From NCBI RefSeq assembly GCF_020567375.1, contig NZ_JAJBZM010000001.1:171396-235395 (forward strand): a stretch of 64,000 nucleotides of DNA. The letters run 5' to 3'. This stretch comes from Janibacter melonis (GTDB lineage: Bacteria; Actinomycetota; Actinomycetes; Actinomycetales; Dermatophilaceae). The notes under the pieces are model-generated. The model did no database searches. It was not told the DNA's origin and worked only from the letters and a program-made list of their open reading frames with translations. Every line of letters starts with the position of its first letter. The first letter of the stretch is position 1. Shown piece after piece: positions 43,654 to 54,925 of the stretch. The position numbers and the translations under genes were made by a program.

Positions 43654-44460
43654 GTGCCCGAGACGATCACCGACCCCGCCGACCCGCGCCTGCGCGACTA
43701 CGTCGGCCTCACCGACGTCGCGCTGCGCCGCGTCCTCGAGCCCGAGGGCGGTCTCTACCTCGCCGAGTCCGAGAAGGTCATCCGGCGTGCGCTCGCAGCA
43801 GGCCACCGCCCGCGCTCGCTGCTCATGTCGCCGCGCTGGCTCGACGACCTCGCCGACGTCGTCGCCGCGTGCGAGGAGGACGGGGTGCCGGTGTACGTCG
43901 GCGAGCCCGAGGTCGTCGAGGGCATCACCGGCTTCAACCTCCATCGCGGCGCGCTCGCCTCGATGCACCGGCCCGACCTGCCCTCCGTCGCCGAGGTCTG
44001 CCGCGACGCCCGCCGGGTGCTCGTCCTCGAGGACCTCGTCGACCACACGAACGTCGGAGCCGTCTTCCGCTCCGCCGCCGCCCTCGGGGTCGACGCGGTG
44101 CTCGTCACCCCGCGCTGCGCCGACCCGCTCTACCGGCGCTCGGTGCGCGTGTCGATGGGGACCGTCTTCCAGGTGCCGTGGACCCGGCTCGACCAGTGGC
44201 CGGCGGACGTCGGCGCTCTGCAGGAGCTGGGGCTCGTCGTCGCCGCGCTCGCGCTCGCCGACGACGCCGTCTCGCTCGACGACCTCGCCGCCGACCCGCC
44301 GGACCGGCTGGCGCTCGTCGTCGGCACCGAGGGCGACGGGCTCTCGCGGCGCACGCTCGCGCAGGCCGACCTCACCGTGACGATCCCGATGCGCGGGGGA
44401 GTGGACTCGCTCAACGCCGCGGCGGCCAGCGCCGTCGCCGCGTGGGCCCTGCGCACCTGA
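43654..44460 (+). CDS. TrmH/SpoU-type RNA 2'-O-methyltransferase
   Basis: 268 residues. N-terminal substrate-binding part (ESEKVIRRALAAGHRPRSLLMS), then the SPOUT knot with motif 1 DHTNVGAVFRSAAALG, motif 2 LVVGTEGDGLSRRTL and motif 3 IPMRGGVDSLNAAAASAVAAWA. Methylates a ribose in rRNA or tRNA; the exact target is not evident. Located after the TSUP pair but with its own promoter. Followed by the intergenic repeat element. Confidence 0.92.
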   Translation: MPETITDPADPRLRDYVGLTDVALRRVLEPEGGLYLAESEKVIRRALAAGHRPRSLLMSPRWLDDLADVVAACEEDGVPVYVGEPEVVEGITGFNLHRGALASMHRPDLPSVAEVCRDARRVLVLEDLVDHTNVGAVFRSAAALGVDAVLVTPRCADPLYRRSVRVSMGTVFQVPWTRLDQWPADVGALQELGLVVAALALADDAVSLDDLAADPPDRLALVVGTEGDGLSRRTLAQADLTVTIPMRGGVDSLNAAAASAVAAWALRT

Positions 44461-44501
44461 GCGAGCCGACCCCCCTTCGCCCCGCCGTGCACGCCCCCTC
44501 G

Positions 44502-44592
44502 CTCCGACAAAACCCTGCCAGCAGGGTCTTGACGAGCCAGGACCCCTTCGACAGGGTCCTGGCTCGTCGAAGGGCAGCCAGCAGGGTTTCGA
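44502..44592. repeat. intergenic repeat element, copy 1 (convergent gene ends)
   Basis: Begins TCCGACAA, then ACCCTGC-CA-GCAGGGT (44512-44527), a perfect 15-bp hairpin GACGAGCCAGGACCC/GGGTCCTGGCTCGTC (44531-44568), and GCAGGGTTTCG (44581-44591), whose first nine bases pair with AAACCCTGC at 44510-44518. A diverged second copy, in the same orientation, is at 54265-54353. Probably also a bidirectional terminator. Confidence 0.8.
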
Positions 44593-44601
44593 AGGGGGAG
44601 G

Positions 44602-45162
44602 TCAGGCGGGGGTCTGGTAGGTCCCGGTGACGACGGCGCGGGCGATGGTCGCGCCGAGGTAGTTGAAGGCGGCGACCGTGCACGTCACGGAGTCGTCGAC
44701 GGGCAGGGCGTCGGGCTCGACGTCGAGGGCGTGGACGGCGAAGACGTAGCGGTGGGGGCGGTCGCCGGCCGGCGGGGCGGCACCGCCGAAGGCCTTCGTG
44801 CCGTAGTCGGTCGCCGTCATGAAGGCGCCGTCGGGCAAGCCCGCGCCGCCCTCGGCGCCCGCGTCCTCGGCGAGCTCGGTGACATCGGCCGGGATGCCGA
44901 GCACGGTCCAGTGCCAGAAGCCCGCGGGCGTCGGCGCGTCGGGGTCGAAGCAGGAGACGGCGTAGCTCTTCGTGCCCTCCGGGGCGCCGGACCACGCGAG
45001 GTGCGGGCTGCGGTTGCCGCCCTCGAAGCCCCAGTCGTCGAAGACCTGCGCCTCGGGCAGCGCCTGCCCGTCGGCGAAGGTGTCGCTGCGCACCTCGAAG
45101 GGCGGCACCTGCGGCAGGAGGTCGTAGGGCTCGGGAGCGGTGGGGCGGGAGTCGAGATCCAT
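44602..45162 (-). CDS. YbhB/YbcL-type PEBP-like protein
   Basis: 186 residues of the Raf-kinase-inhibitor-like (phosphatidylethanolamine-binding) family. Seen: [47 protein letters not shown], whose DPDAP and GFWHW parts form the ligand pocket, and [11 protein letters not shown]. Cytoplasmic, no signal peptide. Biological role of the bacterial members is unclear. The ATG is 7 bases after TAGGGT on the minus strand. Convergent with the methyltransferase gene across the repeat element. Confidence 0.92.
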
Positions 45163-45169
45163 GCGCCCG

Positions 45170-45175
45170 ACCCTA
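45170..45175 (-). promoter_or_regulatory. -10 of PEBP-like gene (leaderless)
   Basis: Minus-strand TAGGGT, 7 bases before the ATG at 45162. Confidence 0.5.
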
Positions 45176-45212
45176 GGACGCGAGCGACGCGTCGGGGCCG
45201 GTCGCGGGCACC

Positions 45213-45593
45213 TCAGCGCACGAGCTCGTCGAGCAGCCGCTCGAGCTCGGCGGCGGGGTCCTGCGTGAGGCCGCCGTGCACCGGTCCCGGACGCACGACG
45301 GTCGAGCGGGGGGCGCTGATCCACCCGAAGCGCCGCCCGTCGCCGTCGAGATCGGGCCGCCCGCCGCCGGTGCGGCCGAGGGCGACGTCGCAGACGACCT
45401 CGAGCGCCGCGTGCACCGCGGCGACGTCGAGATCGGGCCACAGGGCACGCAGCCGCTCCTCGTCGAGGGCGAAGGCGGCGCGCAGGTAGTCGTGCCCCTG
45501 GCTGCGCAGCACGACGCCGACGTTGACGAACTCCTCGCGCTCGGCCCGCGGCACGCAGCGCAGCACGACGTACTGGTAGGTCTGCAGGGTCAT
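45213..45593 (-). CDS. DUF3037 family protein, partner of the HipA-like kinase
   Basis: 126 residues. Opens with [31 protein letters not shown], the DUF3037 hallmark; the rest is Asp/Arg-rich with [21 protein letters not shown]. No catalytic motif seen. ATG overlaps the stop of the HipA-like kinase gene, and as far as I recall the two families usually travel together, so they probably act as a pair. Function unknown. Confidence 0.85.
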
Positions 45594-46363
45594 CGGGAGG
45601 CCCCCGGCAACCAGGCGTCGGGGGAGGCGAGGCGGGCGACGAGGTGGTCCACGTACTCGTCACGGATGGCCTGCGTCGTCGGCAGGTGCTCACCGGGGGT
45701 GAGCCACTCGTCGGGCACGAGGTCGACGATCTCGACGAGTCGGTCCTGCGTGAGCACGGCGCAGGCCCGCTCGTGCACCTCGCCGAGGTCACCGACGAGG
45801 TCGCGCAGGACGTGGGTCGACGCGTCGAAGGGCTGGGCGGCGAAGCGATCCGCGCTCGGTGCCTTACGTGCCCACGCGTGGTGGAACCACAGCGCCGCAC
45901 CGTGGTCGATGGCCCACACCTGGCCACCCCACCGCAGGAGGTTGGGGTTCGCCCACGTGCGGTCGACGTTCGAGGTGCAGGCGTCCAGCCACAGGACGAG
46001 CGCGGCGACCTCGGGGTCCGCGGGCTGCGAGCCGTCGTAGCCGAAGGCACCCGGCAGGTAGTCCATGCCGAGGTTGAGCCCGACCGACGCGGTGAGCAGG
46101 TCCTGGACCTCCTCGTCGGCCTCGAAGCGGGCGATCTCGCCGGACAGGTCGACCTCGACGAGCTCGGGGACGGCGACGCCGAGCGCCCGCCCCATCTCGC
46201 CGACGAGCACCTCGGCGACGAGCACCGGCAGGCCCTGACCGGCGCCACGCATCTTCACGACGTACATGCCGAGGTCGTCGGCCTCGACGAGGCCGGGCAT
46301 GGATCCCCCTTCGCGCAGGGGGACGGCGTACCGGGTGGCACGGACGTGGCGAAGGGGGGTCAC
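45590..46363 (-). CDS. HipA-like kinase domain protein
   Basis: 257 residues. A reduced HipA/PI3K-like kinase: [10 protein letters not shown] with a nucleotide-binding lysine near residue 37; the catalytic segment [20 protein letters not shown] (Asp, then Asn and Asp-Arg, near residues 125-145); and the metal-binding [14 protein letters not shown]. It lacks the N-terminal subdomain of true HipA toxins and no HipB-like helix-turn-helix gene adjoins it, so it is not a classical toxin-antitoxin pair. GTG start 6 bases after TAGGCT. First gene of the two-gene operon with DUF3037. Confidence 0.85.
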
Positions 46364-46369
46364 GGCGGC

Positions 46370-46375
46370 AGCCTA
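46370..46375 (-). promoter_or_regulatory. -10 of the HipA-like/DUF3037 operon (leaderless)
   Basis: Minus-strand TAGGCT followed by 6 bases and the GTG at 46363. Confidence 0.55.
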
Positions 46376-46428
46376 CGGCCCGCGCCGAGGACCTCCGGCG
46401 GCTCGAGCACGCCTACGGCCAACCCGAT

Positions 46429-46457
46429 TTCGGTCCGCGTCGCACCCGGTGTAGAGT
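46429..46457 (+). promoter_or_regulatory. putative tRNA-Leu promoter
   Basis: TTCGGT (46429-46434), 17-base spacer, TAGAGT (46452-46457), about 47 bases before the mature tRNA 5' end; a usual distance for a processed tRNA leader. Confidence 0.5.
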
Positions 46458-46504
46458 CCTCGACGTTGCCCCGGTGGTCCCCCAGACCGCCGGATGCACC
46501 ACTC

Positions 46505-46590
46505 GTCCGGGTGGCGGAATTGGCAGACGCGCTAGCTTGAGGTGCTAGTGCCCGTATTAGGGCATGGGGGTTCAAGTCCCCCCTCGGACA
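46505..46590 (+). tRNA. tRNA-Leu (anticodon GAG)
   Basis: Class II tRNA of 86 bases. Acceptor stem GTCCGGG/CTCGGAC with one G-T pair and discriminator A; D arm with GGCGGAATTGGCAGAC; anticodon stem CTAGC/GCTAG around loop TTGAGGT, anticodon GAG at 34-36, reading CUC and CUU; long variable arm TGCCCGTATTAGGGCA; T arm GGGGGTTCAAGTCCCCC. CCA is not encoded. Confidence 0.97.
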
Positions 46591-46593
46591 CAG

Positions 46594-46646
46594 GTCGACC
46601 AGGAGTGGTCGACGAAGGGCGGACCCGGTCGGGTCCGCCCTTCGTC
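46594..46646 (+). terminator. strong double hairpin after tRNA-Leu
   Basis: First stem GTCGACCA/TGGTCGAC with loop GGAG (46594-46613). Second stem of 16 perfect base pairs, GACGAAGGGCGGACCC/GGGTCCGCCCTTCGTC with loop GGTC (46611-46646). The two share three bases, so only one can be complete at a time. It also lies at the 3' end of the convergent esterase gene. Confidence 0.85.
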
Positions 46647-46659
46647 GTCCCCGCGCCGG

Positions 46660-47796
46660 TCAGCCGACGGCGTCGAGGACCTCGGTGAGGTAGCGCGCCG
46701 CCCGGTCCGAGCCGATGATCCCCGGCGCCATCTTGTTCATGACGTACGAGACGGTGAGGGAGCGCTCGGGGAACATCACCGTCATCGACCCGCCCCAGCC
46801 GCCCCAGAAGCAGACCCGGCCGTCGGGAATGTAGGGCACGGTCTGCGGCTCGGGCAGCGCGAAGCCGATGCCGAAGCGCAGCGGGACGCCGAGGACGAGG
46901 TCGACGCCGCGGGACTGCTCGCGGAAGATCTGCTCGATCGTCCCCGGCGAGAGCAGCCGCACGTCGCCGACAGCACCCCCGCGCGAGATCACCGAGAAGG
47001 TGCGGGCGAGCGCCCGGGCGTTCGTGTGGGCGTTGAGCGCGCCGAGCTCGGCCCGGCGCCAGGGGACGGTGTTCGCCGCGGCCGCGCTGGCGACCGGTCC
47101 GGTGAAGGTGCGCACCATGGGGGAGTCGGCGGGGACCTGGCTGAGGTCCATCGGCAGCGGGGGAGGCGGCACGATCTCGGCGACGCGGTCGTCGTCGCGC
47201 TCCGTGGCGCCGATCTGCAGGTCGACGCCGAGCGGCCCCGCGATCTCCTCGGCGACGAGCTGAGTCAGCGTGCGTCCGCTGGCCCGGCGGATGATCTCGC
47301 CGAGGAGGTGCCCCTGGTTCTGGGCGTGGTAGCCCGAGGCCGTCCCGGGCTCCCACCACGGGGCCTGGGCCGCCAGCCGTGCCGTCGCCGTCTCGCGGTC
47401 GTACATGTCCGTGAGGACGAAGGGCTGGTCCCAGCCCGAGACGCCCGACGTGTGCGACATGACGTGGCGCACGAGCACGCCCTCCTTGCCGTTCGCGGCG
47501 AACTCGGGCCAGTACGTCGCGACCGGCGCGTCGAGGTCGACGAGACCGCGCTCGACGAGCAGGAGGACGGCGAGCGCCGTGACCTCCTTCGTCGTCGACC
47601 AGACGTTGACGATCGTGTCGCGCTCCCACGGGCGGGTGCAGGCGACGTCGGCGTGCCCGCCCCAGATGTCGGCGAGGGTCTCGCCGTCGAGGTCGACGCT
47701 GATCGCGGCGCCGAGCTCCTCGCCCGAGTCGACCATGGCTGCGAGGGCGTCGCGCAGGCCCGTCAGGCGTGGGTCGGTGTGCCCGTGGATGGTCAT
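46660..47796 (-). CDS. serine hydrolase, beta-lactamase-like family VIII esterase type
   Basis: 378 residues, cytoplasmic. Nucleophile SxxK as [11 protein letters not shown] (near residue 68), second motif YHAQN in [14 protein letters not shown], and C-terminal WGGWGGS in place of [13 protein letters not shown] is typical of EstB-like esterases. GGAGA lies about 5 bases before the ATG. Distinct from the hydrolase at 19267-20418, though of the same superfamily. Substrate unknown. Confidence 0.9.
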
Positions 47797-47931
47797 GAGA
47801 TCTCCTTGTCGACAGCGGGTTCGCGCGCCGCCGGGGCCGCTCGTGCGGACGGCTGCGTCGCCTGCTCGCGACGCTAGCGCCTCGCTACCCGTCGGTCACA
47901 AGCTTCCGGCGGGCTCGTCCCGCCCGGCCCC

Positions 47932-47937
47932 TAGGGT
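47932..47937 (+). promoter_or_regulatory. -10 of M20 peptidase gene (leaderless)
   Basis: TAGGGT followed by 6 bases and ATG 47944. A 6-bp hairpin GGCGGG/CCCGCC lies just upstream at 47908-47924. Confidence 0.55.
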
Positions 47938-47943
47938 GGGTCC

Positions 47944-49266
47944 ATGGAGATCAGCGCGCCGCAGGACGAGGTGGTCCGGCTCTGCCAGGACCTCATCCGG
48001 ATCGACACGACGAACTACGGGCCCGACGGGGAGGGCCCGGGGGAGCGCGAGGCCGCCGACTACGTCGTGGAGCAGCTGCGCGAGGTGGGCTACGAGCCCC
48101 AGCTCTTCGAGTCGCAGCCCGGCCGCGCGAGCGTCGTGCTGCGCATCCCCGGCGCCGACCGGGAGCGCGGGGCGCTGTGCATCCACGGCCATCTCGACGT
48201 CGTGCCGGCGAACGCCCAGGACTGGTCGGTCGACCCCTTCGAAGGGGTCATCAAGGACGGCTGCGTCTGGGGCCGCGGCGCCGTCGACATGAAGGACATG
48301 GACGCGATGATCCTCGCGTGCGTGCGCCACCTCGCGCGCACCGGCACGGTGCCGCCGCGCGACCTCGTCGTCGTCTTCTTCGCCGACGAGGAGGCCGGGG
48401 GAGTCCACGGCAGCCAGTGGCTCGTCGAGCACCACCCCGAGCTCTTCGAGGGCGTGACCGAGGCGATCAGCGAGGTCGGCGGCTACAGCGTCACCGTGCC
48501 GACGCCCGAGGGCGGCGACCGCCGCGCCTACCTGCTGCAGACCGCCGAGAAGGGCATCGTCTGGCTCCGGCTGCGCGCCTCGGGCCGGGCCGGCCACGGC
48601 TCGGTGCCCAACGACGACAACGCCGTGCTCCACCTCGCCCAGGCCCTCTCGCGCATCGCCGAGCACAAGTGGCCGCGCGAGTACATCGCCTCCGTGCGCG
48701 GCCTGCTCGACGGGCTCTCCGAGATCACCGGCACCGGGTACAGCGACGAGGACCTCGAGGAGCTCGTCGAGCACCTCGGCGGGGCCGCGGGCTTCGTGCG
48801 CGGGTCGCTCCAGGACACGGCCAACCCGACGATGCTCACCGCCGGGTACAAGCACAACGTCATCCCCCAGGAGGCCGTCGCCGCCGTCGACTGCCGCTTC
48901 CTGCCCGGGCACGAGGAGTCGCTCATGGCGACGATCGCCGAGCTCGCCGGCGACCGGGTCGTCGTCGAGGTCGAGCACCGCGACATCGCCCTGGACTCCC
49001 CCTTCGAGGGACCGCTCGTCGACGCGATGAAGGCCGCCCTGCTCGCCGAGGACCCCGAGGCGGCGATCCTGCCCTACTGCCTGTCCGGCGGCACGGACAA
49101 CAAGGCGCTGTCGACGATGGGCATCACCGGCTACGGCTTCGCGCCGCTGCGCCTGCCCGCCGATCTCGACTTCGCGCCGATGTTCCACGGCATCGACGAG
49201 CGCGTGCCCACCGAGTCCCTGGAGTTCGGGGCGAAGGTCCTGCTGCGGCTCATCGAGACCTGCTGA
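47944..49266 (+). CDS. M20/M28-type metallopeptidase or amidohydrolase
   Basis: 440 residues. Dizinc site: IHGHLDVVP (His and the catalytic Asp), GRGAVDMKDMDA (bridging Asp), FADEEAGGVHG (catalytic Glu and ligand), and the late FHGIDERVP histidine. A dimerisation insert starts near GRAGHGSVPND. Sequence is of the dipeptidase/ArgE/DapE group; the broad actinobacterial M20 member is usually annotated as a dipeptidase, substrate uncertain. Its last 17 bases overlap the convergent DUF5703 gene. Confidence 0.92.
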   Translation: MEISAPQDEVVRLCQDLIRIDTTNYGPDGEGPGEREAADYVVEQLREVGYEPQLFESQPGRASVVLRIPGADRERGALCIHGHLDVVPANAQDWSVDPFEGVIKDGCVWGRGAVDMKDMDAMILACVRHLARTGTVPPRDLVVVFFADEEAGGVHGSQWLVEHHPELFEGVTEAISEVGGYSVTVPTPEGGDRRAYLLQTAEKGIVWLRLRASGRAGHGSVPNDDNAVLHLAQALSRIAEHKWPREYIASVRGLLDGLSEITGTGYSDEDLEELVEHLGGAAGFVRGSLQDTANPTMLTAGYKHNVIPQEAVAAVDCRFLPGHEESLMATIAELAGDRVVVEVEHRDIALDSPFEGPLVDAMKAALLAEDPEAAILPYCLSGGTDNKALSTMGITGYGFAPLRLPADLDFAPMFHGIDERVPTESLEFGAKVLLRLIETC

Positions 49267-49462
49267 GCCCCAGCGGGTCGTCGCGGCGCGGGACACGGAT
49301 GATCTTGCGCCGCAGCCACGAGCGCTGCTGACCGCCGACGTAGCGCACCGTGCGGTGCAGCTCCCAGCGGCCGTACTCGGCGTGCTCGGCAAGCGCAGCG
49401 CGGATCTGCCCACGGGTGGTCTCGCGGGGGAAGCTGAGGACCTGGAACTCGTACTCGACCAT
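49250..49462 (-). CDS. DUF5703 family small protein
   Basis: 70 residues: VEYEFQVLSFPRETTRGQIRAAL followed by HAEYGRWELHRTVRYVGG and RSWLRRKIIRV. This matches the small actinobacterial DUF5703 family, basic and probably a compact alpha/beta fold; function unknown. The 3' end overlaps the M20 gene by 17 bases. No ribosome site or -10 was convincing. Divergent from the acidic protein gene at 49500. Confidence 0.8.
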   Translation of the reverse strand: MVEYEFQVLSFPRETTRGQIRAALAEHAEYGRWELHRTVRYVGGQQRSWLRRKIIRVPRRDDPLGLSRSR

Positions 49463-49487
49463 CGTGCGCCATTCTCACCCCTGACGG

Positions 49488-49493
49488 TACGGT
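49488..49493 (+). promoter_or_regulatory. -10 of acidic protein gene (leaderless)
   Basis: TACGGT followed by 6 bases and ATG 49500. Confidence 0.55.
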
Positions 49494-49499
49494 CGTGCC

Positions 49500-49832
49500 A
49501 TGACCGCCGACCCGCGCGCCGCGCTGACCAAGCTCATCGCCACCTTTGAGCGGCACCTCGAGGCGTCCTCCGGTCGTAACGGCGAGGACGACCCGCGCGT
49601 GGTCGCCGCGTACGAGGACCTCGCCGACGCCTTCGAGGCCTACGACGACGCCCTCAACGAGGCCTACGGCGAGATGACCCCGCTCATCGTCGTCGACGAC
49701 GCCGACCTCGACGACAGCGGCGACGAGGAGTACGACGACGACGAGGACGACGAGGGCTACTCCGGTCTCGACGACGAGGAGTACGACGACGAGGACAAGG
49801 CCGGCGACGAGCAGGCCCCCGGCCGTCGCTGA
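49500..49832 (+). CDS. small acidic protein of unknown function
   Basis: 110 residues. A helical N-terminal half (ALTKLIATFERHLEASS, YEDLADAFEAYDDALNEAYGE) and a C-terminal half made almost entirely of Asp, Glu, Tyr and Gly. Similar proteins are annotated in some actinobacteria as primosomal protein, which I cannot support. The acidic tail could mimic nucleic acid or bind basic partners; that is speculation. Convergent with corA, 9 bases apart. Confidence 0.75.
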   Translation: MTADPRAALTKLIATFERHLEASSGRNGEDDPRVVAAYEDLADAFEAYDDALNEAYGEMTPLIVVDDADLDDSGDEEYDDDEDDEGYSGLDDEEYDDEDKAGDEQAPGRR

Positions 49833-49841
49833 CCCGGCGAC

Positions 49842-50903
49842 CTACAGCCAGCCGGAGCGCTTGAAGAGCCGGTAGAGCACGAGGCAGGCCGCCACCATGA
49901 CGGCGAGCACGACGTAGTAGCCGTAGTAGACCTCGTGCCCGCTCACCCGCACGCTCGCCGTGAGCTCGGGCATCCGCTCGAAGTTCATGCCGTAGACGCC
50001 GGCGATCATCGTCGGCAGGGCGGCGATCGCCACCCACGCCGAGATGCGGCGCATGTCCTCGTTCTGCTTCATCGAGACCCTGTTCTGCTCCACCCCGACC
50101 TGCGCGAGGTGGGCGCTCAGCACGTCGGTGAGGAGCCGGTCCATCGACTCGAGGCTCTCCAGCGCCTGGGTGAGGTGGTCGGACACGTCGCGGAAGAGCA
50201 GGCGCAGCTCGCCGTGGGCCACCGGCGAGGACGGCGAGGTGAGGAAGCCCATCGGCCGCGCGAGCGGCAGGGCGGCCCGCTTGAACTCGAGGACCTCGCG
50301 CTTGAGGGTGTAGATCTCCTCCGAGGTCAGCCCTGAGCTCGGCTCGAAGACCGCGGTCTCGATGCCCTCGAGATCGACCTGCAGCTCGTCCTCGATGGCG
50401 AGGTACTCGTCGACGACGGTGTCGAGCACGGCGTGGAAGACACCCCACGGGCCGTGCCGCAGCGGGGCCGGGTCCTCCTCGAGACGGTGACGCAGGTCCG
50501 CGAGCGGGCTCGCCTCGCCCCGCCGCACCGTGAGCACGAAGTCGGGCCCGACGAAGACCATGAGCTCGCCGGTCTCGACGTCGGAGGTCTCGTCGAGGTA
50601 GCGCAGCGGCTTGAGGACGGCGAACCACGTGTCGCCGTAGCGCTCGACCTTCGCGCGCTGGTCCCCGGCGACGGCGTCCTCGATCGCGAGGTGGTGCAGC
50701 TCGAGCTCGTCGCCGACGACCCGCTGGAAGGTCTGCGGGCTCGGGTCCTTCAGCCCGATCCACACGAAGTCCGCCGAGCCCTCCGGACGACCGGGTGCCT
50801 CGGCCCGCAGCCGGGCGATCTCTGTGCTGATGTCCTCGCACGGGAGGCGCACCCCGTCGCGATATCGGGCCTGGTCGACGATCACCGCGTCATCATCGCG
50901 CAC
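49842..50903 (-). CDS. corA: CorA-type magnesium transporter
   Basis: 353 residues. Large cytoplasmic N-terminal domain, long coiled helix (about 170-290), then two C-terminal transmembrane helices with the selectivity motif YGMNF after the first, and a basic RLFKRSGWL end. Pentameric channel for Mg2+ and possibly Co2+. The start is uncertain: GTG 50903 gives the full frame, but GTG 50885 (VIVDQARY) matches the usual family start. Divergent from the phosphatase gene with 13 bases between. Confidence 0.93.
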   Translation of the reverse strand: MRDDDAVIVDQARYRDGVRLPCEDISTEIARLRAEAPGRPEGSADFVWIGLKDPSPQTFQRVVGDELELHHLAIEDAVAGDQRAKVERYGDTWFAVLKPLRYLDETSDVETGELMVFVGPDFVLTVRRGEASPLADLRHRLEEDPAPLRHGPWGVFHAVLDTVVDEYLAIEDELQVDLEGIETAVFEPSSGLTSEEIYTLKREVLEFKRAALPLARPMGFLTSPSSPVAHGELRLLFRDVSDHLTQALESLESMDRLLTDVLSAHLAQVGVEQNRVSMKQNEDMRRISAWVAIAALPTMIAGVYGMNFERMPELTASVRVSGHEVYYGYYVVLAVMVAACLVLYRLFKRSGWL

Positions 50904-50904
50904 G

Positions 50905-50910
50905 TAGCCT
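50905..50910 (+). promoter_or_regulatory. -10 of phosphatase-to-mshC cluster (leaderless)
   Basis: TAGCCT followed by 6 bases and GTG 50917. Confidence 0.5.
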
Positions 50911-50916
50911 GACGTC

Positions 50917-51624
50917 GTGGCCTACTGCCTGCTGCTCCGACATGCCCGATCCAGCGCCAACGCCGCCGGCCTCCTCGCCGGCTGGTCCGCGGGCGTCTCC
51001 CTCGACGACACCGGCCGCGCCCAGGCGCAGGAGGTGGTCGACCGGCTCGGCGAGCTGCCGCTCGTGCGCGTCGTCACCAGCCCCCTCGACCGCTGCCTCG
51101 AGACCGTCGAGCCCCTGCGGGCCCGCCTCGGGCTCGACCTCGAGGTCGAGCCCGACATCGGAGAGGCGCACTACGGGGGGTGGACGGGGCGCCCGCTCGT
51201 CGAGCTCGCGAAGGAGCCGTTGTGGCGCACCGTGCAGAGCACCCCGAGCCAGGCCGTCTTCCCGCCCTCGGACGAGCACGCCCACGAGTCGATCGCGACG
51301 ATGGCCCAGCGCGCCGTCGCCGCGATCCGCCGGGTCGACGCGCAGGTCGAGGAGGAGCACGGGGCGCACGCGATGTGGCTCGCCGTGAGCCACGGCGACA
51401 TCATCAAGTCGGTCGTCGCCGACGCCTCGGCGACACCGCTCGACGACTTCCAGCGCTTCGTCGTCGACCCCGCGTCGGTGAGCGTCCTGCGCTACACGCC
51501 CGAGCGCCCCTTCGTCCTGCGGGTCAACGACAGCGGGCCGCTGCGACCGGTGCCGCAGCCCTCGACGACCACCCCCGAGACGACCCCGCCGGGAGACGCC
51601 GTCGTCGGCGGGGGAGCGGGCTAG
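50917..51624 (+). CDS. histidine phosphatase (MSMEG_4193-like)
   Basis: 235 residues. Phosphoglycerate-mutase-like fold: LLLRHARSSAN with the RH nucleophile near residue 8, VTSPLDRCLETVEPL, the acid/base GEAHYGGWTGR, and VSHGDIIKSVV with the second histidine. The C-terminal ~30 residues are Pro/Thr/Gly-rich. Belongs to a set (this gene, DUF3090, SCO1664-like) that I recall as conserved beside mshC in actinobacteria. Natural substrate unknown. Confidence 0.9.
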   Translation: MAYCLLLRHARSSANAAGLLAGWSAGVSLDDTGRAQAQEVVDRLGELPLVRVVTSPLDRCLETVEPLRARLGLDLEVEPDIGEAHYGGWTGRPLVELAKEPLWRTVQSTPSQAVFPPSDEHAHESIATMAQRAVAAIRRVDAQVEEEHGAHAMWLAVSHGDIIKSVVADASATPLDDFQRFVVDPASVSVLRYTPERPFVLRVNDSGPLRPVPQPSTTTPETTPPGDAVVGGGAG

Positions 51625-51627
51625 GGT
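51622..51627 (+). promoter_or_regulatory. -10 of DUF3090 gene (leaderless)
   Basis: TAGGGT beginning at the TAG stop of the phosphatase gene, followed by 6 bases and ATG 51634. Confidence 0.5.
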
Positions 51628-51633
51628 CGGGTC

Positions 51634-52179
51634 ATGAGCGTCTTCGAGTACGACCCGCCGGAGCGATTCGTCGTCGGCACCGTCGGCCCTCCCGGGGACC
51701 GGACGTTCTACCTCCAGGCCAGCGACGGTCATCGCCGTCACCAGATCGCCGTCGAGAAGGTCCACGTCGGCGTCCTCGCGGAGCGGATCGAGACCCTCCT
51801 CGACGAGGTGGGCGGGCTCGAAGGGGGAGTGGCCGCGGCCGTCGGGTCGGCCGACAACGCGCCCCTCGACACCCCGATCACCGAGGACTTCCGCGTCCTC
51901 GCGCTCTCCCTCGCCTGGGACGAGGAGCGCCGGGTCGTCGTCATCGAGTGCCACGACCACGACCCCGACGAGCTCGCCGAGGAGGGCGACCCGCAGGGCG
52001 AGCCGCTCGTCGGCGGCCCGAGCACCCTGCGCGTGGTCCTCTCGCCCGCGAAGGCCCGCGCCTTCGCCCGCCGGTGCGAGACCGTCGTGTCCGCCGGGCG
52101 CCCGTCCTGCCCCTTCTGCGGTGGCCCGCTCGACCCCGAGGGGCACATCTGCCCCCGCGCGAACGGCTACCGGCGCTGA
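51634..52179 (+). CDS. DUF3090 family protein with C-terminal zinc ribbon
   Basis: 181 residues. Conserved opening FEYDPPERFVVGTVGPPGDRTFYLQA; LALAWD-like LALSLAWDEERRVVVIE; C-terminal SCPFCGGPLDPEGHICPRANGYRR, a CxxC plus His/Cys zinc ribbon. Actinobacterial family of unknown function encoded next to the SCO1664-like kinase homologue and mshC. Its stop codon overlaps the presumed CTG start of the next gene. Confidence 0.88.
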   Translation: MSVFEYDPPERFVVGTVGPPGDRTFYLQASDGHRRHQIAVEKVHVGVLAERIETLLDEVGGLEGGVAAAVGSADNAPLDTPITEDFRVLALSLAWDEERRVVVIECHDHDPDELAEEGDPQGEPLVGGPSTLRVVLSPAKARAFARRCETVVSAGRPSCPFCGGPLDPEGHICPRANGYRR

Positions 52180-52988
52180 CCGAGCGGCTGGCCCCGCAGC
52201 CCTGCGAGATCGAGACCCACCTCGCCGAGGGCGAGCTGACGATGCTCGGTGCCCACCCCGAGGCGAGCAACCTCGCGATCGTCTGCGAGGTCGAGCACGA
52301 GGGCGGCACGCTCACCGCGATCTACAAGCCGGTGCAGGGCGAGCGGCCCCTGTGGGACTACCCCGACGGGCACCTCGCCCATCGCGAGCGGGCGGCCTAC
52401 CTCGTCGCCCGGCTCGGCGGATTCGACTGCGTCCCGGCGACCGTCCTGCGGGCCGGGCCCCTCGGCGAGGGCTCCGTGCAGCGATGGGTCGGCACCCTCG
52501 ACGAGCCCGCCGACAGCCCCGTCGCCGTCACCCGTCCGGGCCAGATCCCACCGGGCTACCTGCGGGTGCTCTCGGGCGAGGACGAGCGCGGCACGGGCGT
52601 CGTGCTCAGCCACCCCGACGACCCGGTGCTGAGGTCGCTGTCGGTGCTCGACGCCGTCATCAACAACAGCGACCGCAAGGGCAGCCACGTGCTCCTCGAG
52701 GGCGACGGCGTCTACGGCATCGACAACGGCGTGAGCCTGTCCGTCGAGCCCAAGCTGCGCACCGTCCTGTGGGGGTGGGCGGGGGACCCCCTCACGGACG
52801 CGGACCGGGCCCGTGTGGAGCGCCTCGTCGAGGCGATCGAAGGCTCGCCGGAGGCCGGTGAGCTCGACGAGCTGCTCACCGTGACCGAGGTCGACGCGCT
52901 CGTCGCGCGGTGCGAGCGGCTGCTGCGGGCGGGTCGTCATCCCCGGCCCGGGCACGGCTGGCCGAGCGTGCCGTGGCCGCCCGTCTGA
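52176..52988 (+). CDS. SCO1664-like protein, PI3/4-kinase-like fold, CTG start
   Basis: 270 residues if it starts at CTG 52176, which overlaps the DUF3090 stop as CTGA. No ATG, GTG or TTG lies in frame between well inside DUF3090 and ATG 52242, and the conserved stretch HLAEGELTMLGAHPEASN begins before that ATG, so a CTG start (or a base error) is implied. Kinase-like features: AIYKPVQGERPLWDYP (nucleotide Lys), VINNSDRKGSHVL (catalytic-loop-like) and GIDNGVS (metal-binding). Distant resemblance to phosphatidylinositol kinases; function unknown. Confidence 0.82.
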   Translation: MTERLAPQPCEIETHLAEGELTMLGAHPEASNLAIVCEVEHEGGTLTAIYKPVQGERPLWDYPDGHLAHRERAAYLVARLGGFDCVPATVLRAGPLGEGSVQRWVGTLDEPADSPVAVTRPGQIPPGYLRVLSGEDERGTGVVLSHPDDPVLRSLSVLDAVINNSDRKGSHVLLEGDGVYGIDNGVSLSVEPKLRTVLWGWAGDPLTDADRARVERLVEAIEGSPEAGELDELLTVTEVDALVARCERLLRAGRHPRPGHGWPSVPWPPV

Positions 52989-52995
52989 GCCACCT

Positions 52996-53001
52996 TAGGA
53001 T
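52996..53001 (+). promoter_or_regulatory. -10 of mshC (leaderless)
   Basis: TAGGAT followed by 6 bases and GTG 53008. Confidence 0.55.
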
Positions 53002-53007
53002 GGGCGC

Positions 53008-54258
53008 GTGAAGTCCTGGTCCGCGCCCGCCGTCCCCACTCTCCCAGGCAGCGGTCCCACCCCGCGGCTGCACGACACCCTCACGGACGCCGTGGCCGAG
53101 GTGCGTCCCGAGCAGGGCCGGCTCAGCCTCTACGTCTGCGGCGTCACCCCCTACGACACGACCCACATGGGGCACGCCGCCACCTACGTCACCTTCGACG
53201 TGCTCCACCGCGCCGCCCTCGACAGCGGGCTCGGCGTCGACTACGTGCAGAACGTCACCGACGTCGACGACCCGCTCCTCGAGCGCGCCGAGCGCGACGG
53301 CGTGGACTGGCGCGACCTCGCGACGAGCCAGATCGAGCTCTTCTCGCAGGACATGGCCGCGCTGCGCGTCATCCCGCCGAAGGCCTACGTCGGCGTCGTC
53401 GAGGCGATGCCGCGCATCGTCGCCGTCGTCGAGCGGCTCGTCGACGCCGGGGTGACCTACACCCTCACCGAGGACGCCACCGGCGCCCAGGACACCTATC
53501 TCGACGTCACCGCCGTCGGCGGTGTCGAGCAGGTGAGCCCGCTGCCCGAGGCGACGATGCTCGAGTACTCCGCCGAGCGCGGGGGAGACCCCGACCGCGC
53601 CGGCAAGCGCCACCGTCTCGACCCGATGCTGTGGCGCGGCGAGCGTGACGGCGAGCCCGCGTGGGAGAGCGCCGTCCTCGGCCGGGGACGCCCCGGCTGG
53701 CACATCGAGTGCACGGCGATCGCCCTCGACCACCTCGGCGAGACCGTCGGCGTGCAGGGCGGCGGGTCCGACCTCGAGTTCCCGCACCACCCGATGACCG
53801 CGCTCCAGGCGGTCGCCGCGACGCGGCGGTCCCCCTTCGCCACCCACACGACCCACCAGGCGATGGTGGGTCTCGACGGCGAGAAGATGAGCAAGTCCAA
53901 GGGCAACCTCGTGCGGGTCTCCGACCTGCGCCGTGAGGGCGTCGACCCGGCGGCGATCCGGCTCGTGCTGCTCGCCCACCACTACCGCACCGAGTGGTCG
54001 TGGACCGAGGACTCCCTGCGCCACGCCCAGCGCCGCCTCGACCGCTGGCGCCGCGCGACCTCGCTGCCGAGCGGCCCGGGTGTCGGGACGCTCGCCGACG
54101 AGGTGCGCACCGCGCTCGCCGACGACCTCGACACCGCGGCCGCGCTCGACGCGGTCGACCGCTGGTGCGAGCAGGCGGAGTCCGGCGAGGGCGCCGACGA
54201 GGACGCCCCGGCGCTCGTCGTCGACGTCGTCGACGCCCTGCTGGGCGTCGAGCTGTAG
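53008..54258 (+). CDS. mshC: cysteine:GlcN-Ins ligase of mycothiol synthesis
   Basis: 416 residues. ATP-dependent ligase joining cysteine to glucosaminyl-inositol, paralogous to cysteinyl-tRNA synthetase. Zinc-site cysteine in LYVCGVTPYD (about residue 44), HIGH equivalent THMGHAA, further ligands in GWHIECTAIALDH, and KMSKSKGN at about residue 293. It lacks the anticodon-binding domain of CysS, and the 416-residue length fits MshC. Shows the organism makes mycothiol. GTG start is at the predicted transcription start. Followed by repeat copy 2. Confidence 0.95.
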   Translation: MKSWSAPAVPTLPGSGPTPRLHDTLTDAVAEVRPEQGRLSLYVCGVTPYDTTHMGHAATYVTFDVLHRAALDSGLGVDYVQNVTDVDDPLLERAERDGVDWRDLATSQIELFSQDMAALRVIPPKAYVGVVEAMPRIVAVVERLVDAGVTYTLTEDATGAQDTYLDVTAVGGVEQVSPLPEATMLEYSAERGGDPDRAGKRHRLDPMLWRGERDGEPAWESAVLGRGRPGWHIECTAIALDHLGETVGVQGGGSDLEFPHHPMTALQAVAATRRSPFATHTTHQAMVGLDGEKMSKSKGNLVRVSDLRREGVDPAAIRLVLLAHHYRTEWSWTEDSLRHAQRRLDRWRRATSLPSGPGVGTLADEVRTALADDLDTAAALDAVDRWCEQAESGEGADEDAPALVVDVVDALLGVEL

Positions 54259-54264
54259 ACCTCC

Positions 54265-54353
54265 TCCGACAAGACCCTGCCAGCAGCCCTTCGACGTGCC
54301 AGGACCCTGTCGAGACGGTCCTGCCACATCAAGAGGCAGCCAGCAGGGTTTCG
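54265..54353. repeat. intergenic repeat element, copy 2 (convergent gene ends)
   Basis: TCCGACAAGACCCTGCCAGCAG, CCAGGACCCTG, GGTCCTG and GGCAGCCAGCAGGGTTTCG align in order with copy 1 at 44502-44592. The central stem is partly degenerate (GTGCCAGGACC/GGTCCTGCCAC, with one mismatch). Like copy 1 it lies between convergent genes (mshC and the immunity-like gene). Confidence 0.78.
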
Positions 54354-54400
54354 TCAGTAGGTGGGGCGAGGAGGAGCGGGCGAAGGGGGGAGCACACAGG

Positions 54401-54925
54401 TCAGCGGCGGGGGCCGGCGTCGCCGAAGGCGCCCCAGCAGATCGCGTCGCGCCGCGCCTGGTCCTCGAGGACGAGGTCACGGACGGCGGCGGGCAGCTGC
54501 TCGCGCTGCCAGTCGCGCTCGCCGACCCCCGCCGACGGGTCCTGCGGGTGAGCGTGATGCACGGCGCGGATCGCGTAGGCCGCGGCACCGAGGTCGTGCT
54601 CCGCTACGTGTGGCACGCAGGCAGCCTGGCCGGCTGCGTAGGCCGCGAGCCGGGCCGGACCGGTGAGCGGTCGTGCGGCGCCCATGGCGTGACCGCCGAC
54701 GGCCCGGGCACGCATCATGGGCAGCTCGCCACCGGCCCAGGACCGGACCGCCTCGACGGCCGCCCGGGGCCGCGGGTCGCCGGGCACCTCCTCCTCGACG
54801 AGCCCGAGCACGTGCTCGGCGCACAGCGCCGCCCACAGCGCGAGCAGCCGGTGGTCCGCGTCGGTGAGGGTGCCGCCGCGCCGCACCGACACCAGACGCG
54901 GGTCGCGCACTTCCGGGAGGATCAT
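54401..54925 (-). CDS. putative immunity-like helical protein
   Basis: 174 residues. LTDADHRLLALWAALCAEHVLGLVEE, PRPRAAVEAVRSWAGGEL and repeated AAxAAG segments, ending ERDWQREQLPAAVRDLV, match a helical family commonly annotated as putative immunity protein. No polymorphic toxin lies in the window, so an immunity role is doubtful. ATG start, 17 bases after the PAC2 stop; same operon. GC usage is like its neighbours, no sign of recent transfer. Confidence 0.7.
   Translation of the reverse strand: MILPEVRDPRLVSVRRGGTLTDADHRLLALWAALCAEHVLGLVEEEVPGDPRPRAAVEAVRSWAGGELPMMRARAVGGHAMGAARPLTGPARLAAYAAGQAACVPHVAEHDLGAAAYAIRAVHHAHPQDPSAGVGERDWQREQLPAAVRDLVLEDQARRDAICWGAFGDAGPRR

Follow-up and report, generated by a model that had tools for sequence, protein, structure and literature searches.

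Two copies of an 86-bp palindromic element lie between genes in a stretch of the Janibacter melonis genome, at 44507-44592 and 54269-54354 of the 64,000 nucleotides that were analysed (the window, G000:C1:171396-235395, where G000 denotes this genome of 3.49 Mb in five contigs). We consider it probable, at roughly two chances in three (0.68), that these repeats belong, as dispersed and non-autonomous members, to a selfish system of two components, the other being a gene that encodes an AbiEi-DUF559 protein and lies outside the window on the same contig. Mobilisation of the elements would be driven by the nuclease part of this protein.

An AbiEi-DUF559 gene lies between two elements

With up to one mismatch, the 14-mer CCAGCAGGGTTTCG has 28 matches in the genome and the reversed pattern has one. 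The 15 intact copies first extracted are of identical length, and a covariance model built from them (R1) finds 17 full-length places, each of 92 columns. The first-pass annotation had reported two repeats of about 90 bases in the window and had likened them to a dispersed REP (repetitive extragenic palindromic) or MITE (miniature inverted-repeat transposable element) family. Both points hold, the copies having 86-bp cores at the positions given above and further genomes of the family Dermatophilaceae being positive as well; the covariance-model search of the genome and its relatives returned many copies, so the repeat is not limited to two.

Only two of the J. melonis elements lie less than 2 kb apart, and these enclose a gene of 302 amino acids (G000:C1:1094341-1095249, which is L173 5142-6050), about 0.87 Mb from the second window copy. 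The two elements are full-length and lie 57 bp before and 53 bp after the gene, which is the one gene called between them; the next genes stand beyond the elements. The encoded protein matches the Pfam family DUF559 (3.2e-5); its matches to AbiEi_4 (7.4e-4) and MTES_1575 (7e-4) fall below the curated cut-offs. Its residues 10-184 match the PADLOC models of AbiEi (best 1.3e-10). A profile of 22 such proteins run against the PDB found 3hrl (endonuclease-like, 1.9e-6) and 3r3p ('Mobile intron protein', 3.4e-5), which we take to be I-Bth0305I; Vsr (1cw0) came up only at 0.26. Residues E209, D235 and E246 of the J. melonis protein are invariant, and by similarity its nuclease part is assigned to the EDxHD/Vsr type.

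It had been noted that the repeat was not tied to any transposase seen in the window. This stands insofar as a search of the J. melonis genome for the REP-associated tyrosine transposase (RAYT), or Y1 transposase (PF01797), gave no match, with the control positive in 5 of 14; it needs amending in that the repeat is tied to a DUF559 nuclease gene beyond the window. The plasmid collections contained no match to the proteins, and the viral contigs one distant relative.

Many DUF559 genes of relatives are bracketed by their own words

A DUF559 search in 14 genomes returned 40 matches (30 with loci, 10 without), and every genome was positive. Four further DUF559 genes in relatives have words of the 86-bp type on both sides, one of them weakly, and their proteins group together. 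We compared the flanks of 25 of the 30 loci (5 were dropped for called gene length) with those of 210 control genes, using 220-260 bp on each side and masking the common CCCTTCG/CGAAGGG motif. Words shared between the two flanks placed 23 of the 25 DUF559 genes above the 95th control percentile and 16 above the 99th; L272 and L273 failed. The top-ranked control gene, L244, has no Pfam match but is itself DUF559-like in its C-terminal motif and its position in the tree, and the second-ranked is the DUF559 gene of the congener G002.

Two further sets were measured against re-paired flanks, a weaker control than the 210 genes. They comprised 28 of 30 loci from the family, 6 of them from the first set, and 21 of 29 from the phylum, the others being left out because of their length or because a gene call or a flank was missing. 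In the family set 20 of the 28 genes exceeded the 95th percentile (15 of the 22 new to the test), and across the phylum 10 of the 21 did so, 8 of them also exceeding the 99th.

The flank words were then matched to the groups of dispersed elements. L252 scored 62 with the G002-A elements, L264 50 with those of J. melonis, L267 44.5 with those of G080 and L269 45 with those of G085, in each case far above the other groups; L255 fitted the G084 elements moderately (22), and 19 other tested genes reached at most 13. The proteins with flanks of the 86-bp type, together with that of L255, are 47-51% identical to the J. melonis protein, against at most 38% for the other 16 of set A4. In the protein tree, rooted at the midpoint, they stand together with L255, split from the rest with support of 88/99 (not starred). 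The eight proteins flanked by another word, CGTACCCGC, form a clade with support of 100/99. Protein clade agrees with flank type.

This second word defines a repeat system of its own. In 12 genomes it gave 141 matches, 90 of which form 45 inverted pairs (hand-picked from the match listing), against 0-1 matches per genome for the reversed pattern; 31 of the pairs measure exactly 106 bp and the others 104, 105 or 107. Two such pairs, 1058-1062 bp apart from start to start, bracket a DUF559 match in six genomes. A third clade (L253, L280) has a word found 22 times in G002 and 12 times in G001 with up to two mismatches (16 and 5 times with up to one; reversed control 0), which forms four 56-bp pairs in G002; the J. 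melonis genome holds two matches to it, both with two mismatches. Other arrangements were seen alongside. L331 (G081), L324 (G052) and L334 (G093) are DUF559 genes bracketed by tandem arrays of short repeats instead of single palindromes, and L365 (G252, from a distant family of the phylum) lies between two direct copies of a stretch that measures 144 bp or more and has inverted ends.

Distribution of genes and elements

Beyond J. melonis, R1 found 16 full-length places in the congener G002 and a single one in the congener G001, and the 35 other genomes scored with them gave none; these counts are lower bounds, with at most 113 first-look candidates scored per genome. Of 186 genomes from the family, 17 had matches to a second model (R2), built from all 34 sequences, 12 with full-length elements (three of Janibacter, six of genus g53, two of g8, one of g12) and five with short or weak matches only, again as lower bounds from at most 23 candidates per genome. 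Full-length elements accompany a clade-1 DUF559 gene (E below 1e-140, 12 candidates scored per genome) in 5 of the 6 genomes that carry the gene, and occur in 7 of the 180 genomes without it; Fisher's test gives p 2.6e-6, with no correction for phylogeny. A loose-pattern scan of genome contigs was set aside: the matches listed came from scattered, unrelated phyla and were regarded as chance hits.

The DUF559 gene of G080 and that of G084, which differ in locus and in words, each lie inside a split element of the same plan, with columns 1/4-75 before the gene and 15/18-89/92 after it. G080, which is of another genus, also has neighbours matching those of the J. melonis partner gene, which we take from the sequence to be dapE- and dapD-like, and between them a single element and no gene. 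At the right flank of the G080 gene site a complete element directly follows a called gene end in 1 of 10 relatives (G082) and is absent from 9. By reading, a terminator-like hairpin is present there in all ten, beside the element of G082. Occupancy differs at another site, where G084 and G085 carry the element and G080 is empty. The differences in the presence of gene and element between the dap-like neighbours and at the G080 gene site are consistent with a homing-type nuclease that would cut a long target and drive the copying of its own gene.

Variation among copies

The 86 bp are a palindrome centred on TCGA that aligns without gaps and holds three palindromes 30 bp apart (centres at columns 16.5, 46.5 and 76.5 of 92, the second being the TCGA). 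In the J. melonis copies the outer words are conserved at 0.96 and 0.95, the inner ones at 0.74-0.88 and the central TCGA fully. The three columns outside the 86 bp are poorly conserved (0.61 and 0.69; 0.49-0.75 across 6 groups), and a T-A pair at columns 3/90 occurs in 7 of the 15 copies. The congener G002 has two subfamilies of eight copies each, G002-A and G002-B, with very different words on the same geometry and length. Outside the genus we fetched 40 full-length places, 34 of exactly 92 columns and six of 87 to 94, again with species-specific words.

Elements at shared positions are closer to their genome-mates than to their positional counterparts. Thus the J. melonis element at L164 and the G080 element at L220, where both flanks align, have an identity of 0.56, where non-matching pairs reach 0.57 and elements of one genome 0.84 and 0.82; at one site shared by closer g53 species the pattern is less clean (0.78, 0.70, 0.83). 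A J. melonis segment at L177:5021-5084 is a diverged, 64-column counterpart of a G002-B-type element at the matching site (L192:4963-5054), by which the genome may hold a second, decayed subfamily. At L178:5061-5136 (G000:C2, about 331060) an element is truncated by a long run of poly-C/poly-G that resembles an assembly error.

The arms of the two window copies had been seen to differ and yet to pair, and this was ascribed to selection for structure. Across all 34 sequences, from all subfamilies, the pairing is indeed Watson-Crick in 72.0% against 62.3% after shuffling. Copy by copy within a genome the explanation is not supported: among the 15 J. melonis copies 80.0% of cells pair against 80.5% shuffled, 11 pairs are changed on both sides against 12.5 expected, and neither the 17 J. 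melonis copies nor either G002 subfamily paired above the shuffled expectation. Palindromy is maintained between subfamilies, and single copies are not kept palindromic by compensated changes. A single global RNA hairpin as the selected unit was rejected within subfamilies, where pairing equals the shuffled expectation, and template switching inside an element found no support in the within-element pairing as a source of the word variants. Linkage between variable columns of the J. melonis copies drops with distance, from an r2 of 0.49 over 1-3 bp to 0.067 over 9-16 bp, against 0.062 for independent columns; beyond about 9 bp the words are mixed freely among copies.

Position relative to genes and the copies in the window

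All 17 J. melonis places lie between called genes (8 convergent, 6 tandem, 3 divergent). Positions were examined for 74 elements, 6 of which were dropped as ambiguous, with genes in the fetched loci called by a home-made caller based on codon usage. The remaining 68 comprise 26 convergent, 35 tandem and 7 divergent cases, against 15, 95 and 60 among the gaps of 100 bp or more that hold no element in these loci. In the tandem pairs 28 of the 35 elements lie nearer the 3' end of the upstream gene, at median distances of 24 bp from its stop and 74 bp to the next start. The earlier description of the repeats as lying between convergent genes is partly borne out by the convergent excess, but the tandem copies, with their bias to the upstream 3' end, indicate that the preference is for gene 3' ends in general and not for convergence as such.

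The element flanks are C-rich on the left and G-rich on the right. Insertion into the loop of a pre-existing hairpin was tried and dropped, locus-specific inverted repeats of 8 bp occurring at 13 of the 68 elements against 12.6 with re-paired flanks. A reading as integron attC sites, suggested by copies after stop codons with conserved ends, was set aside, the copies being scattered singly.

Each window copy consists of three palindromes, 44507-44532, 44534-44565 and 44567-44592 in the first (middle TCGA at 44548-44551) and 54269-54294, 54296-54327 and 54329-54354 in the second (54310-54313); neither has an assigned strand. The covariance model places them at G000:C1:215899-215990 and 225661-225752, which includes three flanking columns on each side. 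Where a single perfect 15-bp central stem had been described for the first copy there are thus three palindromes nested in an overall one; that both copies fold strongly holds, z being -6.0 to -7.8 against shuffles on either strand.

Pfam annotation covered the four neighbouring genes, which form a convergent pair around each copy. The first copy is preceded by a SpoU-type methylase gene on the plus strand (43654..44460; PF00588, 1.2e-33), whose stop is 46 bp upstream, and followed by a gene of the phosphatidylethanolamine-binding protein family on the minus strand (44602..45162; PF01161, 1.1e-35), whose stop is 9 bp downstream. The second has on its left a class-I tRNA-synthetase-like gene, presumably mshC-like (53008..54258, plus strand; PF01406, 7.6e-77; stop 10 bp away), and on its right an Imm5-like gene (54401..54925, minus strand; PF21805, 1.5e-38; stop 46 bp away). 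At the gathering threshold the sole Rfam match in the window was a tRNA, and the plasmid and phage collections gave no DNA match for the first copy. Short CCCCTTCG / CGAAGGGG motifs stand at gene ends in the window (44470-44479, 44590-44599, 54380-54389), in other intergenic gaps and also in relatives; a terminator-like segment of this type has up to 40 or more matches per genome in genus g53.

Discussion

The mechanism that we propose would begin with the AbiEi-like part binding the palindromic words, as characterised AbiEi binds long inverted repeats according to passages of PMC3985639. The Vsr/EDxHD-type nuclease part would then nick or cut the element, and repair or replication would copy it to new sites and homogenise existing copies. 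Homogenising copy-repair of this kind would give rise both to species-specific words at shared positions and to words that mix freely at distances above about 9 bp. Copies would mostly survive close behind stop codons, since an insertion is least harmful there.

Several observations weigh against this reading. No excess flank sharing was seen in 2 of 25, 8 of 28 and 11 of 21 DUF559 genes of the three sets, and the third-ranked control gene, L191, which is not DUF559 by reading, scores 23.0. L255 passes the first test and fails, as L313 with another gene start, in the second. The pairing of flanks with elements is imperfect, L269 lying in G084 and yet fitting G085 elements (45) better than those of G084 (22.5), and L266 fitting G002-B weakly (16.5). 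L278, a second DUF559 gene of J. melonis, has different flanks, and yet its protein stands, on a very long branch, within the 86-type group. Among the 12 genomes that hold full-length elements, seven, including G081 with 8 fetched elements, carry no clade-1 gene at E below 1e-140, where gene loss is possible, and G092 carries such a gene without an element match. The J. melonis gene has full-length copies around it where G080 and G084 have split ones, and at the 68 elements direct repeats of 3-8 bp stay within the range of re-paired flanks, giving no sign of target-site duplication. By reading, moreover, the genes of J. melonis, G002 (L266), G082, G084 and G092 stand beside the same dap-like genes. 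That several species keep the gene at a single locus points to long residence and not to hopping, so that its own mobility would be modest.

Three other explanations were weighed against nuclease-driven spread. The elements could be operator sites through which an AbiEi-like regulator controls itself by its flanks and a regulon by the dispersed copies, which would accord with words that track the protein clade and with the AbiEi autorepressor that binds long inverted repeats in its own promoter, as described in part of PMC3985639. Against it, the dispersed copies avoid divergent gaps (7 of 68 elements against 60 of 170 background gaps), 28 of 35 tandem copies lie nearer the upstream 3' end, and copies stand downstream of the DUF559 gene as well. 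The genes beside the other elements may share a function, but we regard this explanation as unlikely. We give slightly less credence still to bidirectional terminators or stabilisers of mRNA 3' ends, spread and kept for that role. The strong hairpins on both strands and the strong 3'-end bias would suit them, but there is no covariation among copies within a genome, the G082 element adjoins a terminator-like hairpin that, by reading, is also present in 9 element-free relatives, and the copies bracketing DUF559 genes are left unexplained. The element forms a stable hairpin, and its outer words end in TTTYG without a longer U run; a Rho-independent terminator combines a stable hairpin with a run of U behind it.

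The explanation that we find hardest to credit is that the elements are MITEs of a lost ordinary insertion sequence and the DUF559 genes passengers between copies. The terminal words are, besides the central TCGA, the most conserved part of the J. melonis copies (0.96, 0.95), and seven genomes have elements and no clade-1 gene, both of which are in its favour. The lack of target-site duplications speaks against it, as does the bracketing of further DUF559 clades, and of 10 of 21 genes phylum-wide, by other repeats, since chance capture is unlikely to keep picking one gene family.

The two-component system that we favour resembles that of REPINs (REP doublets forming hairpins) and RAYTs, in which, according to passages of PMC2817692 and PMC3116915, each repeat type belongs to a resident gene with its own repeats on both sides, and repeats and protein change together. 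Short extragenic palindromes, a gene that has its own repeats to either side and the joint change of words and protein are found here too. The enzyme is an AbiEi-DUF559 nuclease instead of a Y1 transposase, the element is a triple palindrome with a fixed length of 86 bp (the other systems have 104-107 or 56 bp), and there is no constant GTRG-type (GT(A/G)G) head, the columns outside the core being poorly conserved. The system works like REPIN-RAYT, sharing its architecture, and is not a member, having neither the Y1 enzyme nor the conserved head. With EDxHD/Vsr-like homing endonucleases such as I-Bth0305I, which dimerises on a target of nearly 60 bp according to part of PMC3943268, it shares a nuclease domain that matches 3r3p, and it differs from them in its AbiEi-like N-terminal part and its many dispersed repeats without genes. 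Residues 10-184 link it to the AbiEi antitoxins of type IV AbiE, whose AbiEi represses its own operon by binding long inverted repeats (from part of PMC3985639); unlike these it has a fused nuclease domain, and no second gene (AbiEii) is called between the elements of the J. melonis locus.

Going by titles and the openings of abstracts, we found no paper tying DUF559 to repeats, in a search that left ISfinder and most subscription journals outside, and none joining REPIN, RAYT and Actinobacteria. On the strength of the enzyme class and of these literature searches, the system appears, as judged from sequence, to be a form of small selfish DNA that has not been described before. More tentatively, and at somewhat less than even odds, AbiEi-DUF559 proteins may throughout the Actinomycetota be a class of selfish endonucleases, each with its own fast-changing palindrome family that it would bind through a winged helix, cut or nick through the EDxHD/Vsr-type domain, and spread and rewrite by cut and repair, as a counterpart of REPIN-RAYT that evolved independently from a homing-type nuclease.

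DUF559 was detected in 29 of the 60 genomes sampled across the phylum and is listed by Pfam as a protein of unknown function; the system described here gives one group of these genes a testable role. If the reading is true, a second, unrelated enzyme class builds REP-like repeat populations, which may explain dispersed gene-end palindromes in genomes without RAYTs, and the pairs of protein and word would offer a natural series for studying rapid change of DNA specificity.

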